This document shows positions 5,573 through 61,340 of a stretch of DNA of 64,000 bases, in pieces (the first letter of the stretch is position 1; each line of letters starts with the position of its first letter). The DNA lies in assembly GCA_014281115.1 (NCBI GenBank), contig JACONQ010000013.1, forward strand, positions 734,501 through 798,500. The letters run 5' to 3'. The DNA comes from Laburnicola sp. R22_1. Its lineage: Eukaryota > Ascomycota > Dothideomycetes > Pleosporales > Didymosphaeriaceae. The notes below the pieces were generated by a model, which did no database searches, had not been told where the DNA came from, and saw nothing but the letters and a program-made list of their open reading frames with translations. Both the position numbers and the translations under genes were made by a program.

Positions 5573-5663
5573 GTAGACTTCATAATATCAGGAAGAGAAA
5601 CATCGCAGACCTTTTGGTATACGGTACAACGCCGTAAGGGAAAGCTGTGGTAGACTTTATATA
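5573..5663 (+). repeat. Dispersed 60-bp hairpin repeat, copy A, with flanking duplication
   Basis: The core is 5589-5649, beginning CAGGAAGAGAAACATCGCAG and ending GGGAAAGCTGTG. The left flank (5573-5588) and right flank (from 5650) both read GTAGACTT(C)ATA, an imperfect duplication of about 14-16 bp. A small hairpin TACGG...CCGTA sits at 5630-5646. It is about 95% identical to copy B at 39913-39972 and more distant from the copies at 47906, 57162 and 60803. Confidence 0.8.
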
Positions 5664-6431
5664 CTCTGCAGGACCTACACCTGAGGACTGTTTAGTGGAG
5701 CTTGGAATAGAGAGCTATCTTTGCGAACGGCCGTAAACGTGGGGATCGAATCCTCTTTACCAACGTATCGACGTCATTCTGGTTGCTGATTGGCTACTTC
5801 TAGGGCACGCTCGACCGCTGATTGGATACTTGGTGAGCATGCAAATAGAAGCACTTAACATCATCGGTAAAGACATCAGATCAATAATTTTTCTAGCCGC
5901 AGAACCTGCGAGAGATATCTCCTACAGATAATTAATAGTAAAGGTGGGGTGATGGGAGAATAGGGCGATGGGACGAACCTTGGAAGGCTCCTTCTACTAT
6001 TCTAAAAATTTATTCTTCCAAGGGACAGCCTTCCAACGTAAGAGGAACAAAGTGTCTTAGACAACGAAAGACTGTGATAGTTGAGTATAAGCTCAAGCGG
6101 TACTGAAAACCTTGTGATTGAATCTCTAGCTTGGGTATGTTTCTCGACCGGTGGTAAACTCCCTGTGCCGTGGCGCTGAAAGTGACAGGAGCTTTTGGGG
6201 CTAATACGTGAGATGTCTAGGATTCCCGGTGGTTGAACAGGTAACCTTCAATACGTCACCCTCAACAGCTCAACTATGATAAGTAGCGCAGTAACGCAGT
6301 CAGGTCGGCGGTAGCTGGATGGTCATCGTGCGTATTACTCTTTTATTCTCTACCTTCACATTCCTGTTCTACCATAGGTATTTCGCCACCGGTCCCAATA
6401 CTCTAGGGAACATTTATCACGAAGGCGAAAA
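5664..6431. other. Intergenic, no gene seen
   Basis: Fairly AT-rich sequence with no supported ORF. A short inverted repeat (GGAAGGCT near 5980 and AGCCTTCC near 6030) could be a small hairpin or the ends of a mini-element; I cannot decide. Confidence 0.5.
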
Positions 6432-7682
6432 TTAGACAGCAGGTGCTTTGATGTCAAGTAACATGCAAGCCGTCTTGTCCCTGTTGTCGCACTGGAAAAC
6501 CCGGATGGCGTAAACATACAGGTTCCCGAGAGCTTCCTTATGCTGGATCAGGAAGTACGCAATACCGACACTGTTCGGAGCCCCTGTCAACAATCAGCCC
6601 ACCAGTTTCATCAATCAACCAAGCAGTGAAAAGCTAAGGCATACCCAACAGCGCTTTTGCCTCCTCAGAAGTATCGGTAAGAAACAGAGATCCAGGCCAT
6701 GGCAGCAAAGGCTGGTGCGTGTCCTCTAGTGCGCGCGCAATCGTCACTAAGGTTGGGACATTGGTGATGCTGAGCGAGAAGAAGTAGTTGACGTTCTTGA
6801 GACGGTCTGGGTCGCCATTCGAGGCGAGGGTCCACATTCCCCACGAGATATCAGACGATCTAGAGAGTTTCGGGAGTTGGTCGTCTGGGATGGGAATTCG
6901 GAGCTCTACGCCGGCGTGCTTTGGGCTTTTGCGGTCTTGAGCTATTATGTCTGGTGCATCTGTCAGTCCCTGTACCGAGATGGTATGTACTTAGGCGCTC
7001 GTTGGGTTGATCTCAATCGACTGGCATGACATGAATCGCAAGTTCAGGAGAGGGGGTGAATTACCTCCTTCGGCAGAGTTGATGGGATACCCGAAGCGCG
7101 CACCCGTCACTCGATACTCTTTGCCGCCCTGCTGGTAGTGTTGTTCCTCCAACGGAATGTAGTGTCCATTCACATCCTTCAGTTGTGGATCCCCGTGCGT
7201 CACATACATGAGGCCATTGCGGCCACCCCGAGAGACAACTTTGTCCGAGACTCCAAGTCCCCGCAGCGCATTTCCAATGCCCCAGAAACGGTCGAAGTCC
7301 CCCCACTCTGGGCCCATGAGCTTCTCGGTCTGGTGAGCGTAGTATCCCCAGTCTCGGAACAATTCTGTGAGTAAGAAACCGATTAGCAGACTGGGGAGCT
7401 GAATGGATAGTATAAATACTCACGGGGGAAGTTCGCCCACTCGCTCTTTGCAGATGATCGTGGCGGGTTGAAAAGTCGGCCAGCAGTGCCATCGTCTTTG
7501 AACATGGCATCCACGAGCTGACTACCTTTGCAGTAGTGCGCTTCCCAGAGGGTGTCATCGGCAGCAGGCGGAAGCTGTGGGAGGATAGGCTCGCCGCGTC
7601 CAGCGCGACGATGGCGGGATTCAGCTGGCCCGCAGAACACGAGAGCGAGGCTAACCCATGAAATAGCTATGATGAACCTCAT
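6432..7682 (-). CDS. Secreted protein of unknown function (341 aa)
   Basis: Four exons: 7682-7424, 7364-7065, 6959-6645 and 6583-6432. Three GT...AG introns all preserve phase 1. The N-terminus is a signal peptide (MRFIIAISWVSLALVFCG) followed by RHRRAGRG, a possible Kex2 site. The body is hydrophilic with conserved-looking blocks (WGDFDRFWGIGNALRGLGVS, SRGGRNGLMYVTHGDPQL, ISWGMWTLASNGDPDRL) and ends LLDIKAPAV-stop. I do not recognise an enzyme family; the pattern suggests an uncharacterised secreted protein. No transmembrane segment is seen after the signal. Intron 2 (7064-6960) is 105 nt, the longest in this gene. Stop is TAA at 6434-6432. Confidence 0.8.
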
Positions 7683-9031
7683 ATTGACGGAATGGATTGG
7701 TTGTTTGTTTTTGCGCAGAACAAGCGTACTGATTCAACTGTTGATAGGTTTAGGCCTTCTCAGCGCACTCCAGATGTCGTCTAGCCCCAAAAGTTTCACC
7801 TCTCCACTATAAAAGCGTGGAGGCACGTTTGGAATCTATTAGTAAGCAGGTATAGTGATAGAAATGTGCGAAATACCTAGTGACTACTGCTTTATTTAAA
7901 CAATAATATCCTTTTGTCGAACGCACTGCCCCGCAATACAGAATAAATGTGAAATCAATGAAATATTTGTTCCGACCTAATAAGACCAGCCAGATTACAC
8001 GTTGAACTGTGTGGCTTCTTGAAATGGTATTTTTGCCCCTATTTCACCTCGATATCTTGTCAATGCCACCCTGCGCAATCTCCAGTCGACCACACTACGC
8101 AGCTCTAAGCCCTTTGACATAAACTATATATATACTCAAAATTTAGCTTACTAAAAGACTCTTCATCCCTGGATTTAGAATTCTTCACAATATGTCGGCA
8201 GATGCTTCATTGATTGTCCGGCATTCCTCACTGACGAGCTTGGCCTGGGTAGCTAGCCCAGCTCCCGAGATGTGATAGAAACGATAGAAACGGATATGAA
8301 TAAATAAACAGATGGACATGGCAATTGCCTCTCTCTTCCTGATTAAGAGAGTTAATACCATATATACGTTAGAATACAAAACCATCCACATTAAAAACAA
8401 AACGCAGATTCAACCGAATACAAATCCCCAAAGAAGTACACAAAAAACAAAACAAAGCAAAACAAACCGTGCATCCGCTCCCCTCGCAAGCGCGATCCCC
8501 ATCTCCATCGCCATATCCTCCCCGAGTTCAAACACATCTGTCTGTCGTAAAGTTCCCGAAGCTACGTACGTTCTATGTATGTATATATCTAACCTTGTTC
8601 TGCGCATGCACTACCTGTTTAGTGAGACGCTGGGATGTTATCTGTTACAAACCTTCTTTAGACCACGAATGAATCGCGGAGATGGTAAAACTTGCTACGC
8701 CTAACTGTTTGCGGTTGATTCTGACTGCGCCATTTTACTTAGTATTTTGGCTCGTAAACTTTAGTTGTGCTGGTAAGTCTTATAATGTGTAAAAGGTTGA
8801 GTTGACTGTCATATAAACGGATATAATGAACAAATAAACTCCCAATCTCCATCTCGGGCGACACGAGCGCAAGAACGAATTAATTATATAACACCAGGCC
8901 ACACACCACCCGCACGCCACGAATGAAATGTTTCAAAACCTCAGGCCAATCTGACGTGAGAACCACGGCTGCGACAAAAGTGGGGTGACCTGCCCGGCAC
9001 TCCACATGTCCTCCGAGCGCACTACCCCGCG
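7683..9031. other. Long intergenic region, no gene seen
   Basis: AT-rich patches (for example 7860-8160 and 8680-8900) and only short chance frames. No repeat family was matched within the window. A TATAAAAG at 7808-7815 faces right, but no gene follows. Confidence 0.5.
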
Positions 9032-9309
9032 AAACTGCCTATAGCGGCAATTTTTAGAAACCGTAGATTGCAGCGGGACTGGCGGACATAGATGTGAAAG
9101 CCAGTCGGCAGCTCGGCCGGGTATACTGCGCCGCTCGGCGCCGGTGCACCCGCCGGTATGGTGCTCTGCGAAGAGAAGGCAAACTGCCTATTTAGGCAAT
9201 TCGCGGATAGTGTGGATTGTGGTAGGAAGGTAGGTGGGATCAACAAACCGAACGCAAACTGCCTATTCGGGCAATTCGCGGATGGTGTGGATTGTAGCAG
9301 GAAGGTAGA
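9032..9309 (+). repeat. Direct repeats with palindromic TGCCTA..GGCA cores
   Basis: Two units 75 bp apart start at 9181 and 9256. Each has AACTGCCTA(TTT or TTC)(A or G)GGCAATTCGCGGAT, then GTGTGGATTGT and GGAAGGTA. A diverged third unit lies at about 9032 (AACTGCCTATAGCGGCAATT). The core TGCCTATTTAGGCA is palindromic, with variable centre bases but a conserved stem. Confidence 0.75.
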
Positions 9310-9679
9310 ACGGGGTGCAGGTGCGCTAATCCTCCTCAGGCCACGCGCTCCGCCCGGCGGGGTGGTACGACGTCCAGTACCAGTGTACCACCCTCACGCC
9401 ACGCTCATCGCATCGTACGACGAACCATTTCGGCCGGATTTTCTCTCGCTGTGCTCGAATTTAGGCCATGGAACCCCGAAGGAGAGCAGGGGACCGTGTT
9501 CATAAAGTGCGCTGCTGGGAACGCGTTTGCGTATTCGCTATTTCGTCTGCTTTGCACCTCTCGACCGCATCTTGCTTGTCCTCGTAAAACCTCAAGTTCG
9601 TGTGTATCGCTGAAAGTTTGGAATCCCGTATGCGAAGAAGTGTATATTGGACAAGATGTCTACTTGTTATCGTCGGCCG
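9310..9679. other. Upstream region of the protoglobin gene
   Basis: Contains the presumed promoter. No ORF, TATA box or repeat is supported. Confidence 0.45.
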
Positions 9680-10706
9680 ATGCAGCATTTTGACAGGAGG
9701 GAACTGTACACCAATCTAGAAACGAGGGTGCAGTATTTGCACTCGTTTCTCGACTTTAGTACGCGTATGTATAGCTTCGTGCCTTGCGTCCGCGACCGGG
9801 TTACTGAGATGAGTACTTAGGCGACATCGAAGCTCTCACAACGGGTGCCAAGTACATCAAAGCCCTCATCCCCGCGCTGGTCAACATCGTGTACAAGAAA
9901 TTGCTGCAATACGACATCACAGCGCGCACATTCGAGACGCGATCCACTTCCTATGAGGGACCTGTCGACATGAACTTGAGCGAAAGCTCGCCTCAAATCT
10001 TGCACCGGAAGATGTTTCTGCGCGCATATTTGCTGAAGCTGTGCAGTGATCCCACCAAGATGTAAGTTTTGTTGCAGTCATCGGATTCATGCGACGCAGA
10101 TGCTGACTGCCACACAGGGAGTACTGGGAATATCTGGACAAGGTCGGGATGATGCATGTTGGACAAGGGCGCGCGCACCCTCTGCACGTAGAATACCTTC
10201 ACATCGGCGTCACGCTATCCTTCATACAAGACGCCCTCACAGAAGCCATCCTCTCGCATCCGCGATTAAAGATGGACCGCAAAATCGCTCTCGTCAAGGC
10301 CTTGTCCAAGGTCATCTGGATCCAGAACGACCTCTTCGCCAAGTGGTATGTGTGCGACGGAGACGAGTTCAGCGAAGACCGGCTGGTGCCGGATATCGAG
10401 CCAGAAGGTTATCTGCACGGCAAGAAGATACTGCGCAGCAACAGCGACAGCGAAAGTGAGATCGAAGACGCCGACATGGCGACGGGGACCTGTCCTTTCA
10501 AGAACTTGATGTCGCCTGTAGCGAGTGGCCCACGTGTCAAGGCAAGCAGCCCCTTGAGCCCAAACTTCAAGCGAATGAGCCTAGACGAAAACGAGGCGGA
10601 TGCCGGAGCTGCTGAGAGAGGCCTTTCACCAAGTCCTATCCCGCCAGCGTCACCACCTTCGCTATTGTCGAGCGCGATACCGCGACCGGTGGCCGGCAGC
10701 GCGTAG
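9680..10706 (+). CDS. Fungal protoglobin-domain (globin-sensor fold) protein
   Basis: Three exons: 9680-9764, 9821-10061 and 10118-10706, 304 residues. The start ATG gives MQHFDRRELYTNLETRVQYL, the opening typical of fungal protoglobins. The globin-like domain spans about residues 1-195, with the family blocks DIEALTTGAKYIKALIP, YKKLLQYDITARTFETR, KMFLRAYLLKLCSDP, VGMMHVGQGRAHPLHVEYLH and KVIWIQNDLFAKWYV. By position in the family, the His within MMHVG or PLHVEY is a candidate heme ligand. The C-terminal ~100 residues are Ser/Pro-rich and disordered. Bacterial and archaeal relatives bind O2, CO or NO as sensors; the fungal function is unknown. There is no signal peptide, so a cytosolic location is inferred. 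Confidence 0.88.
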
Positions 10707-12230
10707 ACTAGGCGAGAACGTAGATATATTTTGTAGGATGGGCGCTCGACAGAAAGGGAAAGTCTTCGGTTGACTTTTGGATTGCATATTGAAGGTGTTG
10801 GTTGAGTTTTGCAAGTTGGCCGAATTGGCTTGGGATCGGAAGGTTTCGGAGGACAATCTCCTCGGCAGCATTGGAGGCGAATCGACTTGGCTGTTTTTTG
10901 CTTTCAAATCCTGAATACAATATTATTATTATTATTGGCAATGTAATGTGTCATCGCACGCGCAGGTTGCCACTTGCAAGTGACTCACAAGCTACGTCGG
11001 GCGGCCAGGCGACAGCCGTCACGTGTGTGTGTGTCTACGAATGCTGCCATGGTGTTGAGATTCGCCATGTTTCACAGGCGGCCGTGTGGCTTGCGCAGGC
11101 CAGTGGCAGGTGGAGCCGAGGAGGGATCGGCCCAGAGGCGACGTGGAACTGTTCCAACAGTGCAGGACCCCTCCACGGCGGCGGGCGGGCGGGCAGGCGA
11201 CGAGTCTCGAGGTGATACGTCGCCCTGGAGTTGGAAAGTGTTTGGTATGCGCTGGAAAGGATGCCGTTGCTACCACCCCAGCGACAGCGTGACATGTCGT
11301 AGGGAGACGTCTCCAGGCGCATCTACGTACGTGGTTGATAGCTGTTGGGGTGAGAGTGAGAATGGAAGCTAACCCTGACGAGGATCCACCCCATGACGCT
11401 GCACGGAAGCTTGAGCGAGGGGGAGCTTTTTAACTTTTGTTGAGCTCCGTGGCACACGCAGTTCCGTATGTACATGTGCACATGCAGGCATCCGCGACTT
11501 CATTCACAACAAAGCAAATAGTTTCGCCAAGCGGCCTTCCGTTGTGCTTCAGATTGAAAGTACTATGGATCGTATTAACTTCGTAACCGGGGGGTGCCGC
11601 CGGCGCGCCGCCCCTGATTGGCGCTGAGTCGCTGACGCATGTTCCCGGCCGCTCCTGCTCCGTGCGCAAGATTGGCGCCCGGACGGGCTTAGCGCGGCCC
11701 TAGGCCGCTGCGCCGTCACGCCGGGTCCAGAGCGCTCAGGAAGGTGCGGCACCCCAACTCCCGCCGCCCGCTCTTGCCCTCGCTCACAACATCACCAACT
11801 CGCCGCCCTCCCACCACACGTCGCTCCCCCACCACACCACAAAGACGCGGTTTTCTCGTGCTGCAGCCTGCTGCGCGGCCGTCTCTTTTGCCACCACCAT
11901 TCTGCCGACTGTATTTCGCCCCCGTGCGCCTGTTTTCTCTCACCTGGCCCGGCTCGGCCCATCTTCGCGGACGCCTTTGCACCGCTCCCTACACACGTCA
12001 CCACCACCACCCTAGCCTTTCTCTTCGTCCACTCCTTCGCGCACCTTTTATACACGTACCCTTTGTAATTTTCTGCACTTTTTGCGTCGGTAATCCTGCT
12101 GTGCTCTCTGCCCAGCTAACCTTTCGCCTGCGACGTCATTCTGCCGCCCGTCAGCTCCTGTACTTCGATGCGCCAGACCTTCGCCACGACAGATGAGCAC
12201 TGTTTGCACTAAACTTCCCCTTCCACCACC
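10707..12230. other. Intergenic, with a short (ATT)n tract
   Basis: A microsatellite of about five ATT units lies at 10919-10937. The stretch 11700-12200 is C/T-rich on the plus strand, a usual look for a fungal promoter and 5' leader ahead of the gene at 12231. Several open frames here are shadows without motifs. Confidence 0.55.
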
Positions 12231-24985: not shown

Positions 24986-24998
24986 GTTTACCGTATAA

Positions 24999-25003
24999 GA
25001 AAT
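24999..25003. repeat. Left target-site duplication (GAAAT) of the copia element
   Basis: GAAAT abuts the TG of the 5' LTR and is repeated at 38297-38301 directly after the CA of the 3' LTR. Confidence 0.9.
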
Positions 25004-25155
25004 TGTTAGTGTGGAGTACGATATCACATGATACCACCAACCTGATGTAGACTAGTTGCTGATCACGATTCTGCTACTTAAGCAGTTTCTCTGTTCAGCT
25101 TGTTACAATCAACTCAGTCTCTTATTCCTAATTGCTACCCTACTTATCCCTTACA
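25004..25155 (+). repeat. Copia 5' LTR
   Basis: 152 bp, TGTTAGTGTGG...CCCTTACA. It matches the 3' LTR at 150 of 152 positions by eye; the differences are T/C at the GAT(T/C)CTG and TCT(T/C)ATT sites. Confidence 0.95.
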
Positions 25156-25264
25156 GTTATAAGCCCGGCCTACGCTTAATTCAACTGCAGTTCACACTCT
25201 ACCTACTTACTACACACGCGCTTTCCACAACAGAGATTAACTCGACGAGCTCTAGTTTGCCACA

Positions 25265-34375: not shown

Positions 34376-35175
34376 ATACTGCGCCAAACTGCTATTAGAA
34401 TAACGCTCCAAGACGGATAAACCCTAATATTACTGCAGACAATATCGTTCTAGGGTCCTGTCGTCGGGGAGATGGTAGAGGAGACGATACGCCTAGGGAC
34501 CATTTCAGTACGCACGCTTCTCTGTACTGGCAAACGTTTGCTACGGCAATCGTGCAACTGCCCCCAAATGAAGAGTTGAAGGTTCACCGTGATCAACTGC
34601 CGCCGCCACCAAAGAACTGGGCTGAGGTCAAATCCCGCCCTAATGCTGATAAGTGGTTCGCTGCTGCAGACAAGGAGATTAAGGAGCAGCTTCACAAAGG
34701 TGTATTTAAGAAGGTGAAAGATGACGTGAAGGAGCACCCAGATGCTGAGACCCTGCCGCTAATGTGGGTTTTCACGTACAAGTTCGATGCTAATGGCTAC
34801 TTAACTAGCTACAAAGCTCGACTAGTCGTGAGAGGAGATTTGCAGACAACTTGGGATGATACCTACGCAGCTACCCTCGCAGCTCGAACGCTCCGCTTCC
34901 TTATCGCTATTATGTGCGCCTTTAGACTCCTTGCCTACCAGTACGACGTCAAGAATGCTTTCCTCAACGCGTACCTGGCCCAACTCTGTTACGTCTGGAC
35001 TCTAGATGGGTTCCAAGACAGACTAGGCAATATGATGCGACTACGCCGAGCACTGTATGGGCTTAAGGATGCCCCAGCGCTGTGGCACAAACACCTAAAG
35101 AAGACCCTTGTTAATATAGGCTTCACTCAAGTCAAGGGTATCCCTTGCCTATTCACTAATAGCAAGCTAATACTA
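34376..35175 (+). pseudogene. Copia reverse transcriptase, first part (unusually clean)
   Basis: The frame resumes exactly after the LINE. One early TAG lies near 34400, then about 210 codons are open. It reads WAEVKSRPNADKWFAAADKE, PLMWVFTYKFDANGYLTSYK, ARLVVRGDLQ, YQYDVKNAFLNAYL and RALYGLKDAPALWHKHL, all conserved copia RT blocks. All Trp codons here are intact TGG, unlike most of the element. The frame stops where the Fot1-like element inserts, just before the catalytic YVD box. Confidence 0.88.
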
Positions 35176-35271
35176 AGCTCGGCTATATAGTTATTGATCA
35201 CATAGGGTTCCTGATCACCCCACCGAAACGCGCACCCTGAACAAAACACGCGATATCTCTCAACAACGCTC
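35176..35271 (+). repeat. Left terminal inverted repeat of the Fot1-like element
   Basis: Begins AGCTCGGCTATATAG and contains AACGCGCACCCTGAA. It ends six bases before the transposase ATG. Confidence 0.93.
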
Positions 35272-35277
35272 ATCAAA

Positions 35278-36858
35278 ATGGACGCCCGTGAGCTAGCTAT
35301 ACAATCAGCTATCAGCGATTTCAACGCAGGTCTTTATTCTAGCCAACGCGCAGCTGCAAAGGCGTACAATATCCCTCAATCTACGCTATCAACGCGACTC
35401 CGTGGCGCAACAACGAGCGCGCTCAGCTATCAACACCAGCAGCGATTGACTCCTCTACAAGAGGATTTCCTTGTTGAATGGATCCTTGAAGAAGACGCAC
35501 GCGGCTATCCTCCTCCACACGCTCGCGCGCGAGAGATGGCGAATCGAATTCTGCGCATAAACGGCGACAATCAGCCTGTCGGCAAGCTCTGGCTCTCACA
35601 CTTTATTAAGCGCCAGCCACGCGTCGCCTCAGTAGTAGGCCGGAAGCTTAACGCCCAGAGAGCTAAGGCAGCTACGCTAGAACAGCTCCGCGCGTTCCTA
35701 GAGCTCTATAAGCAGACTCAACAGCGACTCAATATACAGACGGAGAATACGTACAATATGGATAAGACTGGCATTGCGCTAGGTGTATGTACTAACACCA
35801 GAGTCCTTGCTAGGGCATTAAAGAAGAAGGCTTACATTAAGTCGCCAGAGAATCGCGAGTGGGTCTCAATAATTGAGTGCGTATCGGCAACAGGGCGGAA
35901 GCTGCGCTGCGTAGTTATCTTCAAGGGCCAGAGCCTGCAGACTACCTGGTTCCCAGCCAAATCAATACCCGACTGGCTCTATACAACCTCCGAGAATGGA
36001 TGGACGTCAAATGCGATAGGTGTTAAGTGGCTGCAGCGCATATTCATCCCTGAGACGGCGCCAGCTGACGGCCAGTACCGCCTGCTTATTCTTGACGGCC
36101 ATGGCAGCCATATTGATATTGAGTTCCTCTGGCTCTGTAAACAGCATCGAATTGAGCTCCTATACCTACCTGCGCACTCCTCTCACGTCCTACAGCCTCT
36201 AGATCTCGCTCCTTTCTCGGTAATTAAGTCTAGTTACCGACGCCAGATCCAGGAGCTCGCATCGCTCGACGACGCCGCGCCTGTCAAGAAGGAGCGCTTT
36301 ATTGCCTGCTACTATCAAGCTAGGGAGGAAGGCTTCACAGAGCGTGTGATTCGAGCTGGTTGGCAGGCTGCTGGTATCTGCCCATTCAACATTAATCACG
36401 TGCTTAGCTCGTCGCAGGTCTCTCAGAGGCCTACAACGCCTACGCCTCAGCAGCAACCTCAGCAGCAGCCTCAGAGCTTCCTCTCTACCACTCAAGGCCC
36501 TCGGGATCTCTACTTGGCGCAGCGCGACGTCCAGAGCCTCGAAAACCTAGGTCGTAGGACCCGGCTCCTCCTACAAAAAGCAGGTAAGGCGCTAGCAGCT
36601 GCGAATGCTAGAGCTGCAGGGCTAGAATCAGAGAAAAGACGCCTTGAGTATCATCTACAGACTACTAGCTCTCACCAGCCACGAAAGCGCGTTCAGATAG
36701 ACCCAAATCAACGCTTTGCAGAGGTAGAGACTATTATGAAGGGTATGCGCGCAGCTGAGGCTTTAGCAGCTCAGCAACGTAAATATACTATATTAAGCGC
36801 TTCAGAAAGGGCTGTAGTAGCTACAGCAGCTGTAGCGCTTGAATCTATGTGTACTTAA
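35278..36858 (+). CDS. Fot1/pogo family transposase (DDE, CENP-B HTH)
   Basis: A single intact 526-residue frame. The N-terminus is a CENP-B-type helix-turn-helix DNA-binding region (SSQRAAAKAYNIPQSTLSTRL and LQEDFLVEWILEEDARGYPP, FIKRQPRVASVVGRKLNAQR). The catalytic triad is visible: YNMDKTGIALG (first Asp, near residue 163), LLILDGHGSHIDIEFLWLC (second Asp) and HSSHVLQPLDLAPFSVIKSS (third Asp). The C-terminus has a Gln-rich linker and a coiled segment (RLLLQKAGKALAAANARAAG). Length and motif spacing fit functional Fot1-like transposases. It would cut at the 96-bp inverted repeats and insert at TA. All Trp codons are intact and no stop is present, in contrast with the elements around it. Confidence 0.95.
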   Translation: MDARELAIQSAISDFNAGLYSSQRAAAKAYNIPQSTLSTRLRGATTSALSYQHQQRLTPLQEDFLVEWILEEDARGYPPPHARAREMANRILRINGDNQPVGKLWLSHFIKRQPRVASVVGRKLNAQRAKAATLEQLRAFLELYKQTQQRLNIQTENTYNMDKTGIALGVCTNTRVLARALKKKAYIKSPENREWVSIIECVSATGRKLRCVVIFKGQSLQTTWFPAKSIPDWLYTTSENGWTSNAIGVKWLQRIFIPETAPADGQYRLLILDGHGSHIDIEFLWLCKQHRIELLYLPAHSSHVLQPLDLAPFSVIKSSYRRQIQELASLDDAAPVKKERFIACYYQAREEGFTERVIRAGWQAAGICPFNINHVLSSSQVSQRPTTPTPQQQPQQQPQSFLSTTQGPRDLYLAQRDVQSLENLGRRTRLLLQKAGKALAAANARAAGLESEKRRLEYHLQTTSSHQPRKRVQIDPNQRFAEVETIMKGMRAAEALAAQQRKYTILSASERAVVATAAVALESMCT

Positions 36859-36870
36859 TGGCAATTATAA

Positions 36871-36966
36871 GAGCGTTGTTGAGAGATATCGCGTGTTTTA
36901 TTCAGGGTGCGCGTTTCGGTGGGGTGATCAGGAACCCTATGTGATCAATAGCTATATAGCCGAGCT
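36871..36966 (-). repeat. Right terminal inverted repeat of the Fot1-like element
   Basis: The reverse complement matches 35176-35271 at 94 of 96 positions. Confidence 0.93.
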
Positions 36967-36968
36967 TA

Positions 36969-38144: not shown

Positions 38145-38296
38145 TGTTAGTGTGGAGTACGATATCACATGATACCACCAACCTGATGTAGACTAGTTGC
38201 TGATCACGATCCTGCTACTTAAGCAGTTTCTCTGTTCAGCTTGTTACAATCAACTCAGTCTCTCATTCCTAATTGCTACCCTACTTATCCCTTACA
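38145..38296 (+). repeat. Copia 3' LTR
   Basis: 152 bp, same ends as the 5' LTR. It is followed by the GAAAT target duplication at 38297-38301 and preceded by a purine-rich GTGGGAGGTG. Confidence 0.95.
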
Positions 38297-38301
38297 GAAA
38301 T

Positions 38302-39899: not shown

Positions 39900-39985
39900 A
39901 AGAAATGTCGAGACAGCTTTCCCTTACAGCGTTGTACCGTATACCAAAAGGTCTGCGATGTTTCTCTTCCTGAAGAAATGTCGAG
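39900..39985 (-). repeat. Dispersed 60-bp hairpin repeat, copy B, with perfect 13-bp duplication
   Basis: The core is 39913-39972. Both sides carry AAGAAATGTCGAG exactly (39900-39912 and 39973-39985), the clearest insertion scar in the family. On the minus strand it reads CAGGAAGAGAAACATCGCAG then CTTTTGGTATACGGTACAAC, nearly identical to copy A. Confidence 0.85.
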
Positions 39986-46607: not shown

Positions 46608-48356
46608 AATGAACGAAGTTGGGTGTGTCCGACGAGAAACTCACCTTGATAGCAGGTACATCCCAATTTTATTGCTCAGCCCTTACCGTGAGTACAAGGC
46701 ACCCGAGGTGCCTCTCTGGAAATTTAATTTGCGGCCACAAGCGACAATACATACGACGGTCAAGAGGGACAAGGGAGTATAAGCGCTCGCACCAATCCCC
46801 ACCACGCGATTGCATATCATCGCGCCGCCTTGGATCATCATGCGCACATCTGAGCGCGAGATAGGAAACATTCGACGCGTTCATCTCTTTGTGGGGTTGC
46901 TGGAAGTGTGGGGGATGGCTGTGGAGGTGCGCGTTTCACGCAGCGCGGGTTCCCTCGTAATGGTACTTGTCCAGTTTCGTTTGATACCAAAAGGTCGTAG
47001 GGCTTCCTACCCACCAAACGCTCTATTCGGAAGCGGAATTAGGTCGAATGATCATGGGAAGATGCAATCACTAGGAAATAGTCCATCCTCTAAAGCCAGC
47101 GGCTCGTGATCGTGACACCCCAGACCCCGCGAAAGAGCCTCTTCTTCCCCGCCAGCGACCCCCTGCCCAGAAAAAAACAGCTCCCATCACCGGTCCGCAC
47201 AACCTCCAGAAATCTCCCACAAATGAAGACCCCAGATGATCAATTCATAAAGCCTGCCGCCGTACCCAGGATGGCGTGTTCATGGTGCGGATCGGCCACG
47301 TTCCTGCAAGCCGTCCAAATTAATGGGGCCGAAAAATCTTCGTATTGACGACTTTACCCTGGGAACGTCAACCCAAGATGAATTGCCGATGGAGCTCCCG
47401 CTCTTCCGGTGCAATGGGAGTTGCGCTCTGCGTGTTTTCTTTTGATGGTCCATCGGGCCGGTCGCCGGTGTGCAGAGATAAGAGGATCTATTCTGAGGCG
47501 AAGTCAATCGCGTCGTATATGCGACTACGTCCCAGCCATCGCTTTCGTAGTTGATGGTTGCGCGACTTATCAGCTTTGTGAGAGATCCTTGGCATATAAT
47601 AATTTCTCATTTGGGGGAACGGTTGCTAAGTGTGATGAGGCAGAGACGGTGGAGTGAGTGACTTGCGGAGAGCAAAACACGAGGGAAGGAACGACCCCTT
47701 GATGCACCGACCACTATAATACACCAGCGTGCAAGTTAAAGTTGGAGCATCAGTTCGATGCTTTCAACGTAGCAGTTTCTCGCTATATATAATCAGCCAA
47801 GTATTTGTGAGAAGGAGAGCTCGAAATGTTAATAACAAAATGCCATTTCACTCGAGCTAACACGACAGATTCTTCCAGACCAAGACCATACGCATACACA
47901 TTCTCCACTATGATCAAGAAGACTTCGCGCACTCTCGGTACACGGTATAACGCTGTGAGGGAAAGCAGTGACATTCCCAACTAATGATACTATAACCTTC
48001 ACATCCCAGACCTCTCCACACGCGCCCATACATTACTTGAGAAAAGACACCCCTAAAGCCCTACCGAGAAGCCCTTCACCACGGCAGCACCAGAACTCCA
48101 CATCCCTACAGATAATAACCCGCCAGCAGCGCCCCCCACCGACCCATAGACAAGCAACCCTTATTGCCAGCAACGAGCACACACGTCTATGTCTGTGGTC
48201 GCCCGGCGGTAACGAAAGTGGGGTATCAACGCCACGCGCGCGCCCCCAATGTGGCACGTAGCACCTCGGACGACAAAAACGACAGAAAGGAAGAAGGCGA
48301 GATAAACGAGAAGACCAAATAGACAAGGCGGTGGCAGAGGAGAAAACAGAGAAGAG
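46608..48356. other. Intergenic with one hairpin-repeat copy
   Basis: 1.75 kb. Adjoining frames around 47106-47420 (TPRKSLFFPASDPLPRKK, then in another frame LRIDDFTLGTSTQDELPM) look more protein-like than chance but need a frameshift. I cannot name a family, so they are left unassigned. Confidence 0.45.
47906..47970 (+). repeat. Dispersed hairpin repeat, copy D
   Basis: 65 bp starting CACTATGATCAAGAAGAC and ending GAGGGAAAGCAGTG, identical by eye to copy C (57162-57226). It is flanked by ACATTCTC on the left and ACATTCCC on the right (7 of 8 identical). Confidence 0.85.
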
Positions 48357-53297: not shown

Positions 53298-54447
53298 ATG
53301 GCAGGCAACATCCCCCCACTGCACAAGAAGGACGGGGCTCCCAAAAGCGCAAACGGCCACATACCAGAATCCATATCTCACCGTACAAAGGGCAACACCA
53401 ATGGCACTCAAGACAACGAACAGAAATCAATACTCCCATGGTTAACTAACAAATGGCGCAGCGAGCTCGTGGCAGCCGCAGCGGAATTCGCGGGCACGTT
53501 CATGTTTCTGTTCTTTGCGTACGGCGGCACGCAAGTCTCTAATACGGCGGCCACGTTTGCTGATGCGGCGTCGGCGGGGCTGGATGAGGGGAGTATTACG
53601 CAGGCACCGAATACGAGCGTGTTGTTGTTTATCAGCTTGATATTTGGGTTCAGCTTGATGGTGAATGTATGGGTGTTCTTTCGGGTCAGTGGTGGATTGC
53701 TCAATCCGGCTGTACGTCCATCCATCGCAACTACCACGAGACGACGAATGCCCCATACAACAACAAACACTAACACTCGGCGATAGGTCACACTAGGCCT
53801 CTACCTAGTCGGCGCCCTCACAGCAACCCGAGCAATCCTCTGCTTCATCTCGCAAATGCTCGCCGGCATAGCCTCCGCAGCCGTCGTCTCCGCCATCCTC
53901 CCCGGCCCCCTAAGCGTCAGCACCACCCTCCGTCGGCGTCAGCCCCGCCCAAGGCGTCTTCCTCGAGATGTTCCTCACCTCCCTCCTCGTCTTCACCATC
54001 TTCATGCTCGCCGCAGAAAAGCACAAATCCACATTCCTCGCCCCCGTCGGCATCGGCCTCGCCGTCTTCGTCGCCGAGCTCGTCGGCGTCCTCTTCACCG
54101 GCGGCTCGCTGAACCCCACCCGCTCCTTCGGGCCCTGCGTCGTAACGCGCAACTTCCCAGGGTACCATTACATCTACTGGTTTGGTCCGCTCATGGGAAC
54201 GTTGCTTGCGTGGGGCATGTATAGGATTGTGAAGCTGGTCGAGTATCAGACTGTTAATCCGGGGCAGGACTTTGACGACCACGAGGCTGCGCTGTTTCAC
54301 CCGCCGGATGATCCCGAGAGTAAGGAGCAGGTGCAGAGGCCGAATGTGGCGGCTATTGCGGCGAATGAGGTGGTTGAAGAGGCGGTTAGGGTGGCGAGTA
54401 GGGAGAGTGGGGGGCAGGAGGAGAGGTTCGATGGGATGGAAGAGTAG
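53298..54447 (+). CDS. Aquaporin / MIP-family channel with an apparent one-base frameshift
   Basis: Exon 1 is 53298-53711, a 75-nt intron (GTACGT...CGATAG, branch CTAAC) follows, and exon 2 starts at 53787. Exon 1 has a soluble N-terminus, TM1 (FAGTFMFLFFAYGGTQVS), TM2 and the first pore motif SGGLLNPA. Exon 2 gives TM3-4 (LGLYLVGALTATRAILCF). The frame breaks at about 53930-53931, in CACCCTCCGTCGG: the upstream frame turns into Arg/Pro-rich nonsense ending at 54224. The shifted frame continues perfectly as VSPAQGVFLEMFLTSLLVFT, GIGLAVFVAELVGVLFTGGS, LNPTRSFGPCVV and YIYWFGPLMG, to TAG at 54445-54447. One surplus C explains it; a sequencing error or a null allele are both possible. The second pore motif is NPT instead of NPA, with the conserved Arg present. 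Confidence 0.8.
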
Positions 54448-54896
54448 TTTGGGAGGGGGGAAGTTACGTATCCGGGGAGGTTTTCGAGGGAGGATCTGAC
54501 GTATTCTGGTCGGTGGCATGTGGGTTCGGCTGGATATGCGTCGCCTGATATGTCGGATCTGGGGCGGACTAGCCACACCGGACATCGAAGACCGTACGGT
54601 AGTCGTCTCCACTACTTTTCTGCTCAAGATGCAAATTCTCCCGATTTCTTTCCTCGGCATAGCAGCGCGTACACGTTTGGATAGGAAAAGCGGGGCGTTG
54701 ACGTCTGCAGCGTTGTATTCCTTTGTAGCATCTCCGTCACGGTCTCTCCCAGCGGCGCACTTTCACGATGATGCCCATAAAACACATCTGCGTACAAGAC
54801 GAACGTAATGACAGCCTTTAATGCCTATTCTCGGTAATAATGCCAAACCATTCTCTTTCTCTCCATGCTGCTTCCTGTTCACCAAAAAGCACGACA
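54448..54896. other. Intergenic, convergent 3' ends
   Basis: No supported gene or repeat. Confidence 0.5.
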
Positions 54897-55750
54897 TCAC
54901 CTCGCACAAAGACACATCCGCATCTCCCCACCCCTCAACAACCCCCTCCTCACCTCGCCCAACCGCGCCTCCATCTTATACACCACAAACCAAACCAAAC
55001 AATGCGCGATGAGCACCGCGGAGACGAAGATGAAAATGACGAGGGCGAGGAGTACTACGGTGGTTTGGACGAGCGGGAAGCGCGGTGCTTCTTTCGTTGC
55101 TTTTGGGGGTAGAGGCTGAGCGAGCGGTGGCATCGCCTGTGGAGGGTGCGTGGACTGAGATTCGGAACGCGGGGGGAAAGGCGCGGCGTCGAGCGGGAGT
55201 TCGGTGACGGGGACGTGACCGAGGTACTGGGGTGCGTCGTCGCCGTCGTTGGCTCCTTTCGGCGGTGTGGTGTCGTCCGTGGTCGTTCCCGCTCGCTCTT
55301 TTCCTTTCCCCGTTGCGCTGATAACGTCGTCATCGCCGAGTATCAGGTATGGGTCTCGTACGGTCTTGGCTCGTGTGGGGAATGGTGAGTCCCATGGCTT
55401 TCTGCTTTCGCGTCTTTGGTAGAGGGTGGGTGGTCGACTGGAGGGAGTGGAGGTTGGGGTTTCGCCGGCGCCATCGTAGGCTGTGGTGGGTTTCTGGGGT
55501 GGGGGCAGGGGGGTGCGGATGCGTTAGTATTGGACGAGGAGGATAAGGAGGGCGGTTAGGAGGATGCTAGTTAAGAGGAGGAGGAGGAGCATGGGTCGTG
55601 GACGGAGCGGAGTGCGTAGGAAGTCGGGTTGGGCGTGGAGTAGGGAGGCTCTTTGGTGCGGTGTAGTGTAGTGCGGAATCGGCGTGTAGGGTATGTCCGC
55701 CCGGATGGGGAACAGGCGCAGGTGTATAAGGATGGGTGTCTTCTGAGCGC
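54897..55750 (-). CDS. Two-transmembrane hypothetical protein (5' end not resolved)
   Basis: Exon 55750-55536 follows an acceptor (CTGGCAG) and ends in a Leu-rich TM helix (MLLLLLLTSILLTALLILL). A 42-nt intron (55535-55494, GTCCAATACTAAC...CCCCAG with a perfect TACTAAC branch point) leads to exon 55493-54897. That exon encodes a ~120-residue hydrophilic region (KPTTAYDGAGETPTSTPSSR, SRKPWDSPFPTRAKTVRDPY, LILGDDDVI) and a second TM helix (VLLALVIFIFVSAVLIAHCL) with a short tail ending CLCAR. The frame is continuous and codon use looks coding. A first exon should lie upstream of 55770 but I cannot place it; the ATG inside the first TM is an alternative start. No family recognised. Confidence 0.55.
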
Positions 55751-55770
55751 CTGCCAGTATCAATAACAAG

Positions 55771-56582
55771 TACTTATTGACAGAGGTTGTAGGGTTTAGA
55801 AAGAAAGAAATAGGCGCTCTTTCCCCCTTCCTCCTAGGCGCATCGTACTTTCCTTAGGAGATCAGATCATCCACCCAGCCCAGCCTAGTTTCTTGTCCCG
55901 CTTTGGGTGTCCAGATGCATGACACGCGCGTCCTCGCCGAGTAACCGACACGTGCAAATCAGCATATCGTCTTTCCTCGGCACATGTCTCACCCAGTCCC
56001 GTCCCGCTCCCGCCATCTTCCAAGGTCGAGGACAGAAACCTAGGTTAGGTATCTTTTATTGGTATTGGAGTGAAGTCATTTGAAATCGAAAATTCGAACT
56101 AGGTCTAGCAATCGGTGTTTTTCTCGTATCGTCTTGATTAGCAATATTTTACATTAGGAACAGATGGCTTAGCGGATTCTGTGGATGGGCAACACTAAGG
56201 TCTAAGTTCCTCGCATCAGTGGTAGAAATCAGGCTTAGTAACGTGTAGGCTCTTGGGTATGCGGAAGTAAGACTGGGTTTGATCGTCCTTACTGATTACG
56301 TACTAGACGTATACATGTCCAGTCGACATAGAAGCTAGATATTCGCGTGTCTTTTTTGAGTAGCTTGCAAAGTCTCTCGTGTCTAGTTTCGAATATTGGT
56401 AGACTCATCCGCTAGATGGAAGAAACGCCAACACAGACTGGACAAGCTTGCAAGGCGAGGAATTCGAGACTAATCCATAAGCTGTAATAGCTGTGGCTAT
56501 ACAGTAGGGGCCCACCCATATCACTTGCCCCCCGTACAGTGGCTCTCGCTTCACCAATTGCCCTTTTACCGGGGTTTGCACC
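55771..56582. other. Intergenic, no gene seen
   Basis: Might hold the missing first exon of the two-TM gene (an ATG frame of 11 codons lies near 55918 on the minus strand), but this is unproven. No repeat seen. Confidence 0.4.
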
Positions 56583-57675
56583 GTGAGGCCCAGCGTTGCA
56601 GTGAAGACCCTATCGGCCGCGGGGTCAGTATCTCCATCGAAATTCATACTAAAGCCTGCTGATGGTCAAAGAAGTCGGGCAAAAATCATTGTAGCCGTCA
56701 TGGGGATCACGGGTGTCGGAAAATCCACGTTCATCCAGCTCCTCGCTGACAACAAAACGAAGGTGAAAGCTGGTCATAACTTAGACTCATGTGAGCTAGC
56801 ATTCTGCATTCCAATGTCTTTCCGCTGATTCTTATTTCACTAGGCACTACAGCCGTTCAAAAAGTCGCATGTACACTACCCAACGGAAAGAAGATTACTA
56901 CCTTATGGTGGACACACCTGGATTCGACGATGCCAAGCGCACTGACTCTGAAATTCTTCGAGATGTCATTACCTGGTTGAACTAGACGCACAAGTCTCAA
57001 AAAATTACCCGGTGTCGTGTACTTGCATCGCATACTAGATCCGAGGGTCGGGCTCAACGAGCTCTACAGCGCTAATGATCAGAGAGGAGTGGTTCTGGAT
57101 ACTACAGTTTTGGACATAATGGACAAGATACAGAGAGTCGAGAAGAAGATCTAATCTCGAACACTATGATCAAGAAGACTTCGCGCACTCTCGGTACACG
57201 GTATAACGCTGTGAGGGAAAGCAGTGGGTGTGCTAAAGAACGCAGTGGAATCTCGAACACTAAATTTTGGAAATCGATGATCGATCAAGAAAGGAAGGTG
57301 ATGCGGCATGACAGGAAAGAACATACGGCACGGAAAATAGTTGAGTACCTAATCGAGAAGAGACAACAGACCACACCGAACAAACACAATGCGTTGGTCG
57401 AGGTAGGACCGAAACACTATCAGAGTGAAACAGACACGGCCGTGATCTCTGAATCTGAAGGCGTCAAAGACTCGTCGAATGAAAAGATCATCGAGAAGGC
57501 AAAAGCACGTCAAGATCTCACCCCGGGTAAAGATTCTGGCACAACAAACTTGCATGGAAACATGCTATCGACGGGAATTCATCCCGGAACATCCGAGGTG
57601 GAGAGACGTCATATCAATAGTGGTCAACTGGGGCCTGAAACACGATCCACGACGGCAATGTGTCATTCCAATTGA
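56583..57675 (+). pseudogene. AIG1-like P-loop GTPase pseudogene
   Basis: Exon 1 has the G1 motif in IIVAVMGITGVGKSTFIQLL and ends LDSC at a GTGAGC donor (56789). The acceptor CACTAG (56845) rejoins TTAVQKVACTLPNGKKIT. A one-base shift at about 56902 then moves to LMVDTPGFDDAKRTDSEILR (G3 motif DTPG). A TAG at 56983-56985 and a further shift precede LPGVVYLHRI-like sequence. Downstream, FWKSMIDQERKVMRHDRKEH and ARKIVEYLIEKRQQTT match the C-terminal part of fungal AIG1-type G-domain proteins. Hairpin-repeat copy C sits inside it (57162-57226). Such GTPases are expanded in fungi with unknown roles. This copy is clearly inactive. Confidence 0.7.
57162..57226 (+). repeat. Dispersed hairpin repeat, copy C, inside the GTPase pseudogene
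   Basis: 65 bp matching copy D. A 14-bp direct repeat AATCTCGAACACTA is found at 57153-57166 and 57249-57262, spanning the copy, but its left edge overlaps the repeat and the 8-bp flanks do not match. The insertion scar is therefore unclear. Confidence 0.8.
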
Positions 57676-59198
57676 CCCCGCGGTGTCAAATATCACCATT
57701 AATACCTCTACAGGGGTGTTACCAGTTGCAGCAGGATCTGTTGTGGAGATACAGTATGTCAGATTGAAGACTGTGGTTCATGTAAACATTTACGTAGACG
57801 ATAAAGTTAGGACAGATGGAGGAGGCTTGGGAGCTTACCTTTTCTCAATAGTCGTGTAGAGAATTAATGTCTTGTTAATTAAACGCGGACGGTACAAGAC
57901 GGTAGCTGAAGAGTAAGTAGAGAGAGCCAGAGATTTCACAATGTTCCTCATATGGACTAGCGCGAGATTAGATCGGAAAATGACGCTAGTCTACGCTAGT
58001 GTATGGCCACTTTTCCGTCATCCTCTCTCCAATCCTACGCGACCTGTCCGTCGTGCAAGAGCTGCGATAGACATTCATTTTTTTTGAGACGATTGCAAAA
58101 GCCATGAGGTGCACGCCGTGACCTCACTGCCTCTAGCAGACGTCGTGCGCGCCAACCACTCTAGAGCCTCGCAATCCTCTTCGCCATACTGGAGCACAAC
58201 AACAATAACCCGCGCTGGCTTCGCGAATTCATGCATGCGGATGTGTAGAAACAGGATCACTCAAAGGCACTGCGATTACCCTTCCTGGGTACTAATCGCA
58301 TTTCAAGTATCCTCCAAGAGCGAACCTCGGCTGGCAATTGAGCAGACACGGGTGGCCTTCCACCCGAGAGACACTCGCTCTGCTGCTGGTTGCTACACTG
58401 TGTAAGCCTTTTGAACGTGGAGGGGTCGGGTGCTTACCTTGGGCACAGTTTGGAGAATCATACACAACCTCGGCAACCACGCGTAGCCTGTTTCCAAATT
58501 TCCGAATTTCATCACATAGGCATGCACGGACACGGTCATGCGAGACTGTACAGACCAGAGCCTCATGTTCTAAACCGGATATCGGCAGCCACCGCCATCC
58601 GTGGCTGAAACGTGTGAGACTGAGACCAGCGTTTTGGATCGGCGGCTTAACGTCGGAGATCCAGATGTCTGGTTTGCTCAGCATCGTTCGGCTCGTCATC
58701 CTGGTGTTTGTTTCTATGGCGACCTCTCATAGATCGGGAAAAGAATCTTCTTCCCAGGCTATCGTTGTCGGTATCGGTGACGATGACTGCTGTGATTTCA
58801 TACCAAGCCAGGCATTGACTACGTCTCCTCTAAAATTAACTCGACAATCGGCACTGTGCGCTTGGCGTTTGGGGTTGGCGTCGGCATACACTGTACACCT
58901 GAGAATAGATCATTCACACGATATCGGCTCTTTATGGCATTCTCTCCAGTATAAATGAGCCTTAGACTGCTCCATGCTACACATCATCATTACGGAACAA
59001 CCATCTATTTTCATCAACACGTCACTCACTCTAGTGTCTTATTTTTACTACTAATTCCATTTTTTATATCTCCAGCCCAGTGCCATCTACGATTTGTTCC
59101 ACTTTGCCTCATCAACAGTTCGCAGGGCAAATCCATTCTTTGCTACATCGCTATCACACACCTCAAGAACTTCTTCGAACAACTCTCTAGAAAGCAAG
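57676..59198. other. Intergenic and 5' leader of the KEP-like gene
   Basis: No firm gene. A frame from 58664 (MSGLLSIVRLVILVFVSMAT...) has a signal-like start and about 98 residues but no other support. A TATA box lies at 58949-58957. Confidence 0.4.
58949..58957 (+). promoter_or_regulatory. Possible TATA box of the Kex2-repeat gene
   Basis: GTATAAATG about 240 bp before the ATG at 59199, consistent with a long fungal 5' leader; single-motif evidence. Confidence 0.4.
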
Positions 59199-59915
59199 AT
59201 GCGTTTCACCGTTGCCACCATCGCGGCCATGGCCCTCATCCTCTCCGCCTCTGCGGCGCCCGCTTCTACTCAATCCTCTAGCGAAAAAGCTCCCGCTCGG
59301 CGCAATGACAACTCTGGAGCAAACGTGGGTAGCGCCTCTGGCCGCCGCAGCTCCATGAATTTGGCCAGGGCTCCTAGAACAGTCCCTCGCAACGCCGTAG
59401 AGACTGTCTCCTTCGGTCTTTCTACTTCGAAGCGTCAGGCCGCCGTGCCAAAGAACGACGCAAAAAAGACCGACACTAGCGACAGTTCCGATACCTCCAG
59501 CTCAGACAGCTCTACCAGCTGTGACAGCACCAGCAGCGATAGCGACTGTCCCGCAGACGCGACGAAGTCCGCTGTGAAGCCAGCCCGAAAGTTGCGCCTC
59601 AAGCGTAGCCAGGTGTCCACCAAGGGGCAAGCTCGCCGCGATAGCGACTCTGATAGCAACGGCTTCAGCGATAGCGGTATCGACAACGACAGCGACAGCG
59701 ATGACGAAGATCGCGCGCGAGCAGTCCAAAACTTCCGTCAGAAGCGTCGTCAGCTATCCAGCAAGGCCAAGGCCAACAAGAAGAGAGATTCCGACAGCGA
59801 CAGCGACAGCAACAGCATCGATAGTGCCGACAGCGACAGTGAAAGCGAGAACGCAAGTCGCGCCCGGGGATCATTCACCAAGCGCCGAGTCACCAGGCGT
59901 CAGCTCCGTGCCTAA
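59199..59915 (+). CDS. Secreted Kex2-processed, Ser/Asp-repeat protein (238 aa)
   Basis: The ATG at 59199 gives a signal peptide (MRFTVATIAAMALILSASAA). The mature part has regularly spaced dibasic sites (KRQAAV, KLRLKRSQ, ARRDSDSDS, KRRQLSS, KKRDSDSDS, TKRRVTRRQL) separating Ser/Asp-rich blocks such as SDSSDTSSSDSS and DNDSDSDDED. Three blocks share the pattern K/R-R-S/Q-x2-S-x-K-x-x-A-x-R/K-R-D-S-D-S-D-S, indicating internal duplication. This layout fits fungal Kex2-processed repeat proteins, which are cleaved in the Golgi into several peptides. There are only two Cys, both in the Ser block. The calcium- or metal-binding look of the (SD)n tracts is a guess. Function unknown. Confidence 0.78.
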   Translation: MRFTVATIAAMALILSASAAPASTQSSSEKAPARRNDNSGANVGSASGRRSSMNLARAPRTVPRNAVETVSFGLSTSKRQAAVPKNDAKKTDTSDSSDTSSSDSSTSCDSTSSDSDCPADATKSAVKPARKLRLKRSQVSTKGQARRDSDSDSNGFSDSGIDNDSDSDDEDRARAVQNFRQKRRQLSSKAKANKKRDSDSDSDSNSIDSADSDSESENASRARGSFTKRRVTRRQLRA

Positions 59916-61340
59916 GTGGCTACTATCTACGAGGAAGGAGACTGCTCAGGAGTAGGCTGAGGCGTACTGGAGATGGATTTGATGTTGATTGGGTGTTACG
60001 CATTTTCCTTGTTTTGCATTGCTTTTTTTGTATATACCTGGGTCCAGGTTGGCCTTTTCGAGCGTATCCCGCATATGAATAGAGTGGCATTGATGAATTG
60101 GTGGTTTTTCAAATCAATGATAATTCTTAAACAAAGTGCTCTCAGGTGAAGTCTACTTCTCTTCTATAGATGAGCGGCGTTTCTAACGCGAGTTCATTAC
60201 GTACGTTGGGTATGATATGAGTGTAGAATTGTTCCTCGTGTTTACGATTGTGGAATAGCCGCGCCGTCTCTCCGCAGCATAGAGACTACACCAGTGATAT
60301 TTTCATTCGTTCATATCCGTTTATAGTCGGCTTAATCTTTTACAAATTATGAGTTAGAAGAACGCAGCAAGTTACTTCGAAGTTTTCTATCTTAGGTAGC
60401 TCTCTTCACAGTATTCCCATAGATCTCATGTTTACACTGATTACTATTGGTCAGTTTGTTGACTGTTTGCATCAAATAATTGAGACCCTGTTAAGAAGTC
60501 TTGTCATAGAAAGGCATGTAGATAGCTCTATAGAGCCACATTCTACACCCGTACCATGAATTTTACGAAGGAAAATAAGGTAGGTATGACGAGTTCAAAA
60601 TTTGACGAAGTGTACCCAAGGTACCGCAGGCAACCGCGCGTCACGTGATTGTCTTCAACTTTGGTACCTGTGGACGGACCATGGTACACCGTAATCGGCA
60701 TGAGGAGCCGATTTACACGTGCTAGCAAATAGGGTCCCTAAACAGCCGCTAAAAACTAGTCTCACTACTTTACCTTGTTACAAAGTGTTTTTCTAGCACC
60801 CCCACAGCTTCCTATCACAGTGTTATACCGTGTACCCAACGTGCGCGAAGTCTTCTACATAGTATTCAAGGTACGTATTGAGCAACAAATGCCTTCCGCT
60901 CGGATGCAGCCTTATATAATAACATAAACTAGCAGCATCACGACTACCGGGAGCGACCTTCGGTCCACAGTCATTTACCCCGAATGGCTGCTTCTTATAC
61001 CTTGTTTATGGTTAGCTTGAGTGCAAGGGCACGGACCACTGCTAGTGCCCTCAAGCTGTATTCACCATACCATGGTAAGGTACGCAGACTCCTCTTAGTC
61101 ATACAGAGGAATATAAAATCTCTCCCGCATCAAATTTCGACTCTACCTCACTTACTTCTATCAACTTCTACCTGCAGTGGAAGAAAAGCTCTCTCGCTCC
61201 GATACACCTACACCCGATCAAAGACAAGGTATCCTATTGGGAAGGCCACCTCTCCAGTCTTTTTCCACATTCACAGTCTCTTTTAACCCTTCAAAGAGAT
61301 CCGGGCGACTCAATTTTAGCTTCGTATCTCGTCGACATCT
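59916..61340. other. Intergenic with one hairpin-repeat copy
   Basis: AT-rich 3' flank then unremarkable sequence. TATATAATAACATAAAC near 60913 and ATATAAAAT near 61112 are TATA-like. No other gene supported. Confidence 0.45.
60803..60863 (-). repeat. Dispersed hairpin repeat, copy E (diverged)
   Basis: On the plus strand CACAGCTTCCTATCACAGTG then TTATACCGTGTACCCAACGT and GCGCGAAGTCTTCTACATAG. It aligns over its whole length with the reverse complement of copies C and D, with a 2-nt gap and several substitutions. The stem bases CACGG...CTGTG on the minus strand are kept. Confidence 0.75.

Follow-up and report, generated by a model that had tools for sequence, protein, structure and literature searches.

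This study revealed that a short hairpin repeat dispersed through a 64-kb window of the genome of Laburnicola sp. R22_1 (contig C5, 734501-798500) has a larger origin than its size suggests. Its units are, with high probability, 5'-truncated, tail-only copies of a non-autonomous retroposon family without long terminal repeats (non-LTR). A preliminary description had listed five copies of 60-65 bp in the window and regarded them as a very small mobile unit. All five were found at the places given, and both this observation and the interpretation attached to it were confirmed in part. The sequence does insert with target-site duplications (TSDs) of variable length, and its behaviour is closer to that of a short interspersed element (SINE) than to that of a miniature inverted-repeat transposable element (MITE). 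A unit of 60-65 bp is not supported; the stretch first described corresponds to the fixed end of a longer retroposon, and individual copies break off at many lengths.

Fixed end, variable end and target-site duplications

The assembly searched comprises 63,931,793 bases in 26 contigs. A host protein encoded in the window, eIF3f, has its nearest match in Trematosphaeria pertusa (92% identity over 90%), and the named hits include several further fungi of the Pleosporales. An 18-nucleotide (nt) core motif gave 398 matches with up to two mismatches (191 + 207), compared with 0 + 2 for the reversed pattern, and an A-type motif gave 157 + 165 matches with up to three mismatches, compared with 1 + 0 for the reversed control; the two sets may overlap, and their counts are not additive. 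The preliminary description had considered that further copies might be lacking in the genome; with hundreds of matches to both motifs, further copies exist. A 65-nt query returned 274 first candidates, the best 40 of which were scored, all with E <= 1.5e-17 and all 90-100% alike across the 65 nt. The flanks of the copies are unrelated, except at a few duplicated loci.

Read on the strand on which the repeat was first described (hereafter the described strand), the left end is fixed and the right end is variable: this pattern held in the first 30 loci, where many copies extended into a common body. TSDs were sought in 61 distinct copies, from 72 profile hits, that reached the left end and position 50, using a direct-repeat score of at least 10 as the threshold and left flanks shifted by 150 or 300 nt as controls. 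A TSD-like repeat between the fixed end and a downstream place was found in 40 of the 61 copies and in none of 120 shifted controls, and the fixed end adjoins the TSD directly. Exact TSDs of 10-15 nt were observed in 35 copies, enclosing inserts of 60 to 1240 nt (60, 60, 63, 81, 81, 82, 82, 83, 83, 96, 96, 102, 118 ... 499, 1240). Inserts of 60-261 nt make up 29 of these 35, in a set of loci chosen by 65-nt and 123-nt queries, in which lengths are biased and shorter copies under-sampled. Separately, at L001 (C22:146983) a tail copy is followed directly by GGGGTTAGGG-like sequence; a TSD was not found at this locus.

Polarity was also apparent in a search with a long copy, L037 (best 40 of 820 candidates, 41 merged copies): 22 copies had both ends, 15 the tail only, three the head end only and one neither end. 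Among the three head-only cases, one begins at nt 37 and another has a nearby tail piece on the other strand. Exact matches to nt ~10-30 of the tail numbered 100 among the matches listed (148 in total with up to one mismatch), and 35 of these 100 were absent among the listed matches with 0-1 mismatch spanning 15 further nt. The longer-tail matches number 126 in all, including 26 with 2-3 mismatches that stand outside those listed, and the 100 accordingly include 9 to 35 that are genuinely shorter (<~45 nt) or broken; one of the 35, L057 (C21:998972), is known to continue with an altered middle. Given that insert lengths vary with one end fixed and that shorter tail matches exist, there is no fixed 60-bp unit.

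A fixed end, a variable end and TSDs are the signature of target-primed reverse transcription of the type used by long interspersed elements (LINEs). This process begins at the 3' end of the RNA and leaves truncations at the 5' end (PMC4176376, PMC2104539), and the fixed end would accordingly be the RNA 3' end. Given retroposition, the mobile RNA very probably corresponds to the strand opposite to the described one, mainly on the basis of truncation polarity; the described strand is thus probably the antisense of this RNA.

Six of the 35 exact inserts end at 81-83 nt (L002, L009, L010, L012, L018 and L030), and in five of the six the presumed RNA starts at CACTGC or no more than two letters from it. 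The 60-nt copy L014 and window copy C start at or within one letter of the same motif, window copy A starts at CACAGC, and window copy B one letter later. CACTGC was observed at the 5' ends of the independent insertions L002, L009, L010, L012, L018, L014 and window copy C, at distances of 60 and 81-83 nt to the 3' end. Preferred stopping places may exist, and the shared 5' ends could result from enzyme pausing or RNA cleavage. Non-random template-switch sites of a fungal LINE enzyme have been reported in Magnaporthe (PMC2104539).

The five window copies and their borders are listed in Table 1. Copies A and B, described as about 95% alike, differ by a single C versus T within their common 60 nt. 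Copies C and D are indeed identical over 65 nt, but the leading CACTA of both belongs to their TSDs and not to the element. With TSDs as borders, the earlier extents hold for A and B, whereas those of C, D and E had to be redrawn, D and E being longer than first described. The perfect duplication at B and the imperfect one at A were recovered, and the one at D, reported as 7 of 8 bp, proved to be longer and perfect, so that B and D alone among the window copies carry exact TSDs. The automatic scan passed B and D, scored A and C below 10 and missed E; for A, C and E the TSDs were therefore assigned by reading the sequence. No sixth copy was found within the window at the sensitivity used. A perfect 25-bp tandem repeat of 4.3 copies (5462-5568) stops a few bases before the TSD of A.

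Table 1. Copies of the repeat in the window, their target-site duplications and their tail stem-loops (window coordinates; the strand of copies is that of the presumed RNA sense).
Feature	Position	Strand	Remarks
Copy A	5589..5649	-	61-nt tail-only copy, A subfamily
TSD of A	5573..5588	.	16 nt, 12/16 vs 5650-5665; imperfect
TSD of A, second copy	5650..5665	.	
Stem-loop, copy A	5604-5623	-	
Copy B	39913..39972	+	60-nt tail-only copy, A subfamily
TSD of B	39900..39912	.	13/13 vs 39973-39985
TSD of B, second copy	39973..39985	.	
Stem-loop, copy B	39938-39957	+	
Copy C	47911..47970	-	60-nt tail-only copy, C subfamily
TSD of C	47898..47910	.	11/13 vs 47971-47983; imperfect
TSD of C, second copy	47971..47983	.	
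Stem-loop, copy C	47926-47944	-	
Copy D (= L002)	57167..57248	-	82-nt tail copy, C subfamily
TSD of D	57153..57166	.	14/14 vs 57249-57262
TSD of D, second copy	57249..57262	.	
Stem-loop, copy D	57182..57200	-	7-bp stem, 5-nt loop, near presumed RNA 3' end
Copy E	60625..60861	+	237 nt, extends far into element body
TSD of E	60612..60624	.	11/13 vs 60862-60874; imperfect
TSD of E, second copy	60862..60874	.	
Stem-loop, copy E	60829-60847	+	

Putative tail stem-loop and proposed mechanism

The tail of the presumed RNA contains a putative stem-loop about 14-15 nt from its end, which in C types reads CGUGUAC-loop-GUGCGCG and in A types occurs as a longer version with one mismatch. Across 44 distinct tails, 293 of 323 cells (91%) are paired in the RNA sense, compared with 218 of 323 (67%) on the described strand. 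At one stem position, 27 of the 44 tails have a G-C pair and 14 an A-U pair; at another, 16 are unpaired. The tail subfamilies largely keep the stem and vary in the letters of the loop (CGAGA, AAAA, CCAAC and GGAAC types), a variation that might reflect several partner LINEs. The hairpin originally described pairs in 187 of 220 cells on the described strand and in 169 of 220 on the opposite one, and the exchange of G-C for A-U at its outer pair was confirmed. It has one arm in common with the tail stem-loop, and the two structures are thus mutually exclusive.

With regard to the mechanism, an RNA from the strand opposite to the described one would end in a short stem-loop followed by ...CTTCTTGATC or, in subfamilies, a variant of it. 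This 3' tail would be bound by a LINE-type enzyme provided in trans, which would nick the target and prime reverse transcription there. Reverse transcription would often stop after 60-260 nt, and staggered cutting of the second strand would leave TSDs of 10-15 bp. The Tad1 clade of LINEs is mainly fungal. Stringent LINEs and their SINEs have a common 3' stem-loop tail that is recognised by the LINE protein, and such pairs have been reported in the CR1, Tad1 and RTE clades (PMC4176376). In fungi, a LINE/SINE insertion flanked by a 14-bp TSD has been described (PMC2104539).

Full-length forms, antisense frame and alternative readings

Two full-length forms with the same two end types were found, a short one of ~376-499 bp and a long one of ~1.2-1.3 kb. 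Full-length copies with TSDs comprise L043 (449 nt), L050 (497-499 nt) and L054 (376-377 nt) for the short form, and L037 (1240 nt, with the same kinds of ends and an 11-nt TSD) for the long form. The second end type reads ...CTCCTGCCCAGGAGGG in L043, L050 and L054 (changed in L050), with the TSD directly after it. Two further long copies, L092 and L093, measure about 1.31 kb, the three long copies read thus spanning 1.24-1.31 kb; no TSD is reported for these two, as the scan range ended before their far ends. Their GC contents are 0.38 and 0.35 and their TA/AT ratios 1.82 and 1.57, compared with 0.53 and 0.54, and 1.15 and 1.29, in L037 and L043, and with 0.52 and 0.92 in the whole window. 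By this composition, L092 and L093 bear heavy alterations of the kind left by repeat-induced point mutation, and L037 and L043 lighter ones.

The long form exhibits one reading frame of about 185 codons, located on the described strand and therefore antisense to the presumed RNA. It is preceded by a TATA-like box; in the three long copies, 229-241 nt separate this box from the fixed end. The frame has at least 156 matches in the genome (150 of 274 candidates scored), with stops in every row listed. Relative to L037, changes at codon positions 1/2/3 number 79/61/93 in L092 and 82/59/98 in L093 (169 positions each), and all seven gaps within the frame are multiples of three. This codon-position bias and these gaps point to past selection on the frame. 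Against this, only three sequences were compared, their alignment is diverged, and in L092 and L093 stops are fewer in the opposite frame -0 (8) than in +0 (12), with equal numbers in L037. The absence of TGA among the stops was rejected as a sign of coding, TGA being rare in all six frames of L092 and L093. No relatives of the frame were found in Pfam or in the protein collection, and comparison with solved structures gave nothing credible (best E 0.21). The frame may be a captured host gene or a part of the element. Tentatively, and with more doubt than confidence, the family could be pictured as a LINE-mobilised retroposon of ~1.3 kb with a protein gene antisense to the copied RNA and a TATA-like promoter beside the tail, the short forms being gene-less derivatives. 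If so, one strand would serve as the mobile template and the other would make protein.

Several points weigh against a family of truncated retroposon copies mobilised by a LINE. At the threshold used, 21 of the 61 copies showed no TSD, and the target junctions do not prove polarity, since base preferences are about equal at the two target borders (0.49 vs 0.56 bits). No paralogous empty site was found when 39 joined queries were compared with the fetched loci, the sole row being a self-match. No LINE-like RVT_1 match (~750-790 nt; 150 scored of 662 candidates) was seen by eye within a few kb of the listed tails, and of 31 RNase H matches one lay 2.1 kb from a listed tail, in the wrong orientation. 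The distance of LINE domains to the listed tails thus gave no convincing case. The antisense orientation of the frame is odd. As for the tail structure, a gap in the stem-loop alignment was placed manually to accommodate the pairing; the observed pairing count of either hairpin was never reached in 1000 shuffles, a result that related sequences can attain without structure; and single-sequence folding was no better than shuffles (mean z 0.02 and -0.30 for the two strands, 54 tails).

Some of these points would fit the same retroposition from the opposite RNA, with the described strand as template, the fixed end as the RNA 5' end, reverse transcription begun at random inside the RNA yet always completed to this 5' end, and the frame in sense. 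The frame and its upstream TATA-like box lie on the described strand, the originally described hairpin pairs better there, and base preferences are similar at both junctions. However, the fixed end of the three long copies is upstream of the TATA-like box, and an mRNA from that promoter would therefore not include it. In LINE-type priming it is the 3' end of the RNA, not the 5' end, that is fixed, and the tail stem-loop reaches its 91% pairing only in the opposite sense. We consider this alternative unlikely.

Movement as a 60-bp unit, either as a very small MITE-like DNA element or as a mobile intron (introner), would account for the inserts near 60 nt (60, 60 and 63) and for the six at 81-83 nt. 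Neither terminal inverted repeats nor, on either strand, GT...AG at the TSD-defined ends were seen by eye. With TSDs ranging from 10 to 15 nt, insert lengths between 60 and 1240 nt beside a constant end, and the next 15 nt missing from at least 9 of the 100 exact tail matches listed, this reading is highly improbable. An old conserved or regulatory sequence that does not move could explain why some core positions are invariant or nearly so in the 44 tails. The TSDs and the unrelated flanks leave it hardly any probability.

Relation to known elements and significance

The family resembles SINEs in being short, dispersed and truncated with one fixed end, in short forms that by their length contain no reverse-transcriptase frame, and in its TSDs of variable length. 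The loci scanned contained no tRNA, 5S or 7SL head: ARAGORN found no tRNA genes in seven loci, and Rfam gave nothing in L092, L093 and the L037 element, three matches far below cutoff in the L043 element and none over cutoff in the window. The RNA polymerase III (Pol III) B box (up to two mismatches, RNA sense) was absent from L043, L050 and L037, with one two-mismatch match in L054. A-box-like matches (0-1 mismatch) occur on both strands of all four full-length copies, as expected of a loose motif. The presumed RNA of all four also contains runs of at least four T, and T runs stop Pol III. The absence of an A tail and a tRNA box, already described, was borne out in the copies scanned. An origin from a ribozyme or small RNA was rejected, given no Rfam match over cutoff and no tRNA. 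Because the search for a small-RNA head and for Pol III boxes was negative, the family is kept apart from strict-sense SINEs. It differs from LINEs in its length and its one ~185-codon frame without a Pfam match, from MITEs in its lack of terminal inverted repeats and its exact TSDs of 10-15 nt, and from introners in its lack of GT...AG borders. Its behaviour is SINE-like, with a tail of putatively stringent type. No report of the family was found among the open-licence papers listed, judged by their titles and abstract beginnings, which does not prove that there is none.

HAL1-type half-LINEs are longer than SINEs and have one sense frame and no reverse transcriptase. The long form is similar in its length, its single frame and its lack of reverse transcriptase, but its frame is antisense to the mobile RNA and kinship with a LINE was not found. 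Three further comparisons can be made. The stringent LINE/SINE pairs ZfL2 and UnaL2 (PMC4176376) likewise have a tail without an A run, as well as TSDs and 5' truncation, which are general LINE features, and carry near the 3' end a stem-loop to which the putative one in this family may correspond; here, in contrast, no partner LINE was found near the listed tails, and the loop letters vary among subfamilies. The Mg-SINE, MGL and WEIRD elements of Magnaporthe (PMC2104539) are also fungal, LINE-mobilised retroposons, with a 14-bp TSD and non-random points at which the reverse transcriptase leaves the template. Mg-SINE has ca. 100 copies (PMC5063351), whereas the present family has 398 core matches and a long form with an antisense frame. 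The AfuSINE families of Aspergillus fumigatus (140-493 bp, TSDs of 4-14 bp, one with a Tad1-LINE-like 3' end) are alike in size and TSDs but carry heads of the tRNA or 5S type together with features of Pol III promoters (PMC5063351), whereas no such head or B box was found here.

Other repeats were also observed. Two 153-nt direct repeats in the window (25004-25156 and 38145-38297) are 99% alike, 13 kb apart and have an RVT_2 frame between them. This frame is of the Copia type, and the repeats are possibly the ends of an old LTR retrotransposon. Between them, at 35174-36968, 107-nt inverted repeats (94%) flank a 526-aa frame with DDE_1 and HTH_Tnp_Tc5 domains, which we take to be a pogo/Fot1-like DNA transposon. 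Elsewhere in the assembly, 1.66 kb is identical at 99.94% between contigs C14 and C16 (L004, L005), and several other match pairs run in reversed order; these matches suggest that part of C14 is duplicated as the 116-kb contig C16.

The tiny units are ordinary 5'-truncated retroposon ends; the interest lies in the family as such, in its two full-length forms and in the antisense frame. An unnamed 60-bp repeat becomes a defined family with known ends, and hundreds of tail fragments become annotatable. As the subfamilies largely keep the stem and differ in the loop, the family provides a fungal test case for which tail structures a LINE enzyme needs. The best short copies are 90-100% alike, whereas two of the three long copies are heavily altered, which may bear on the survival of small retroposons in such fungi. 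If the antisense frame was expressed, the arrangement would match no named retroposon that we could cite.

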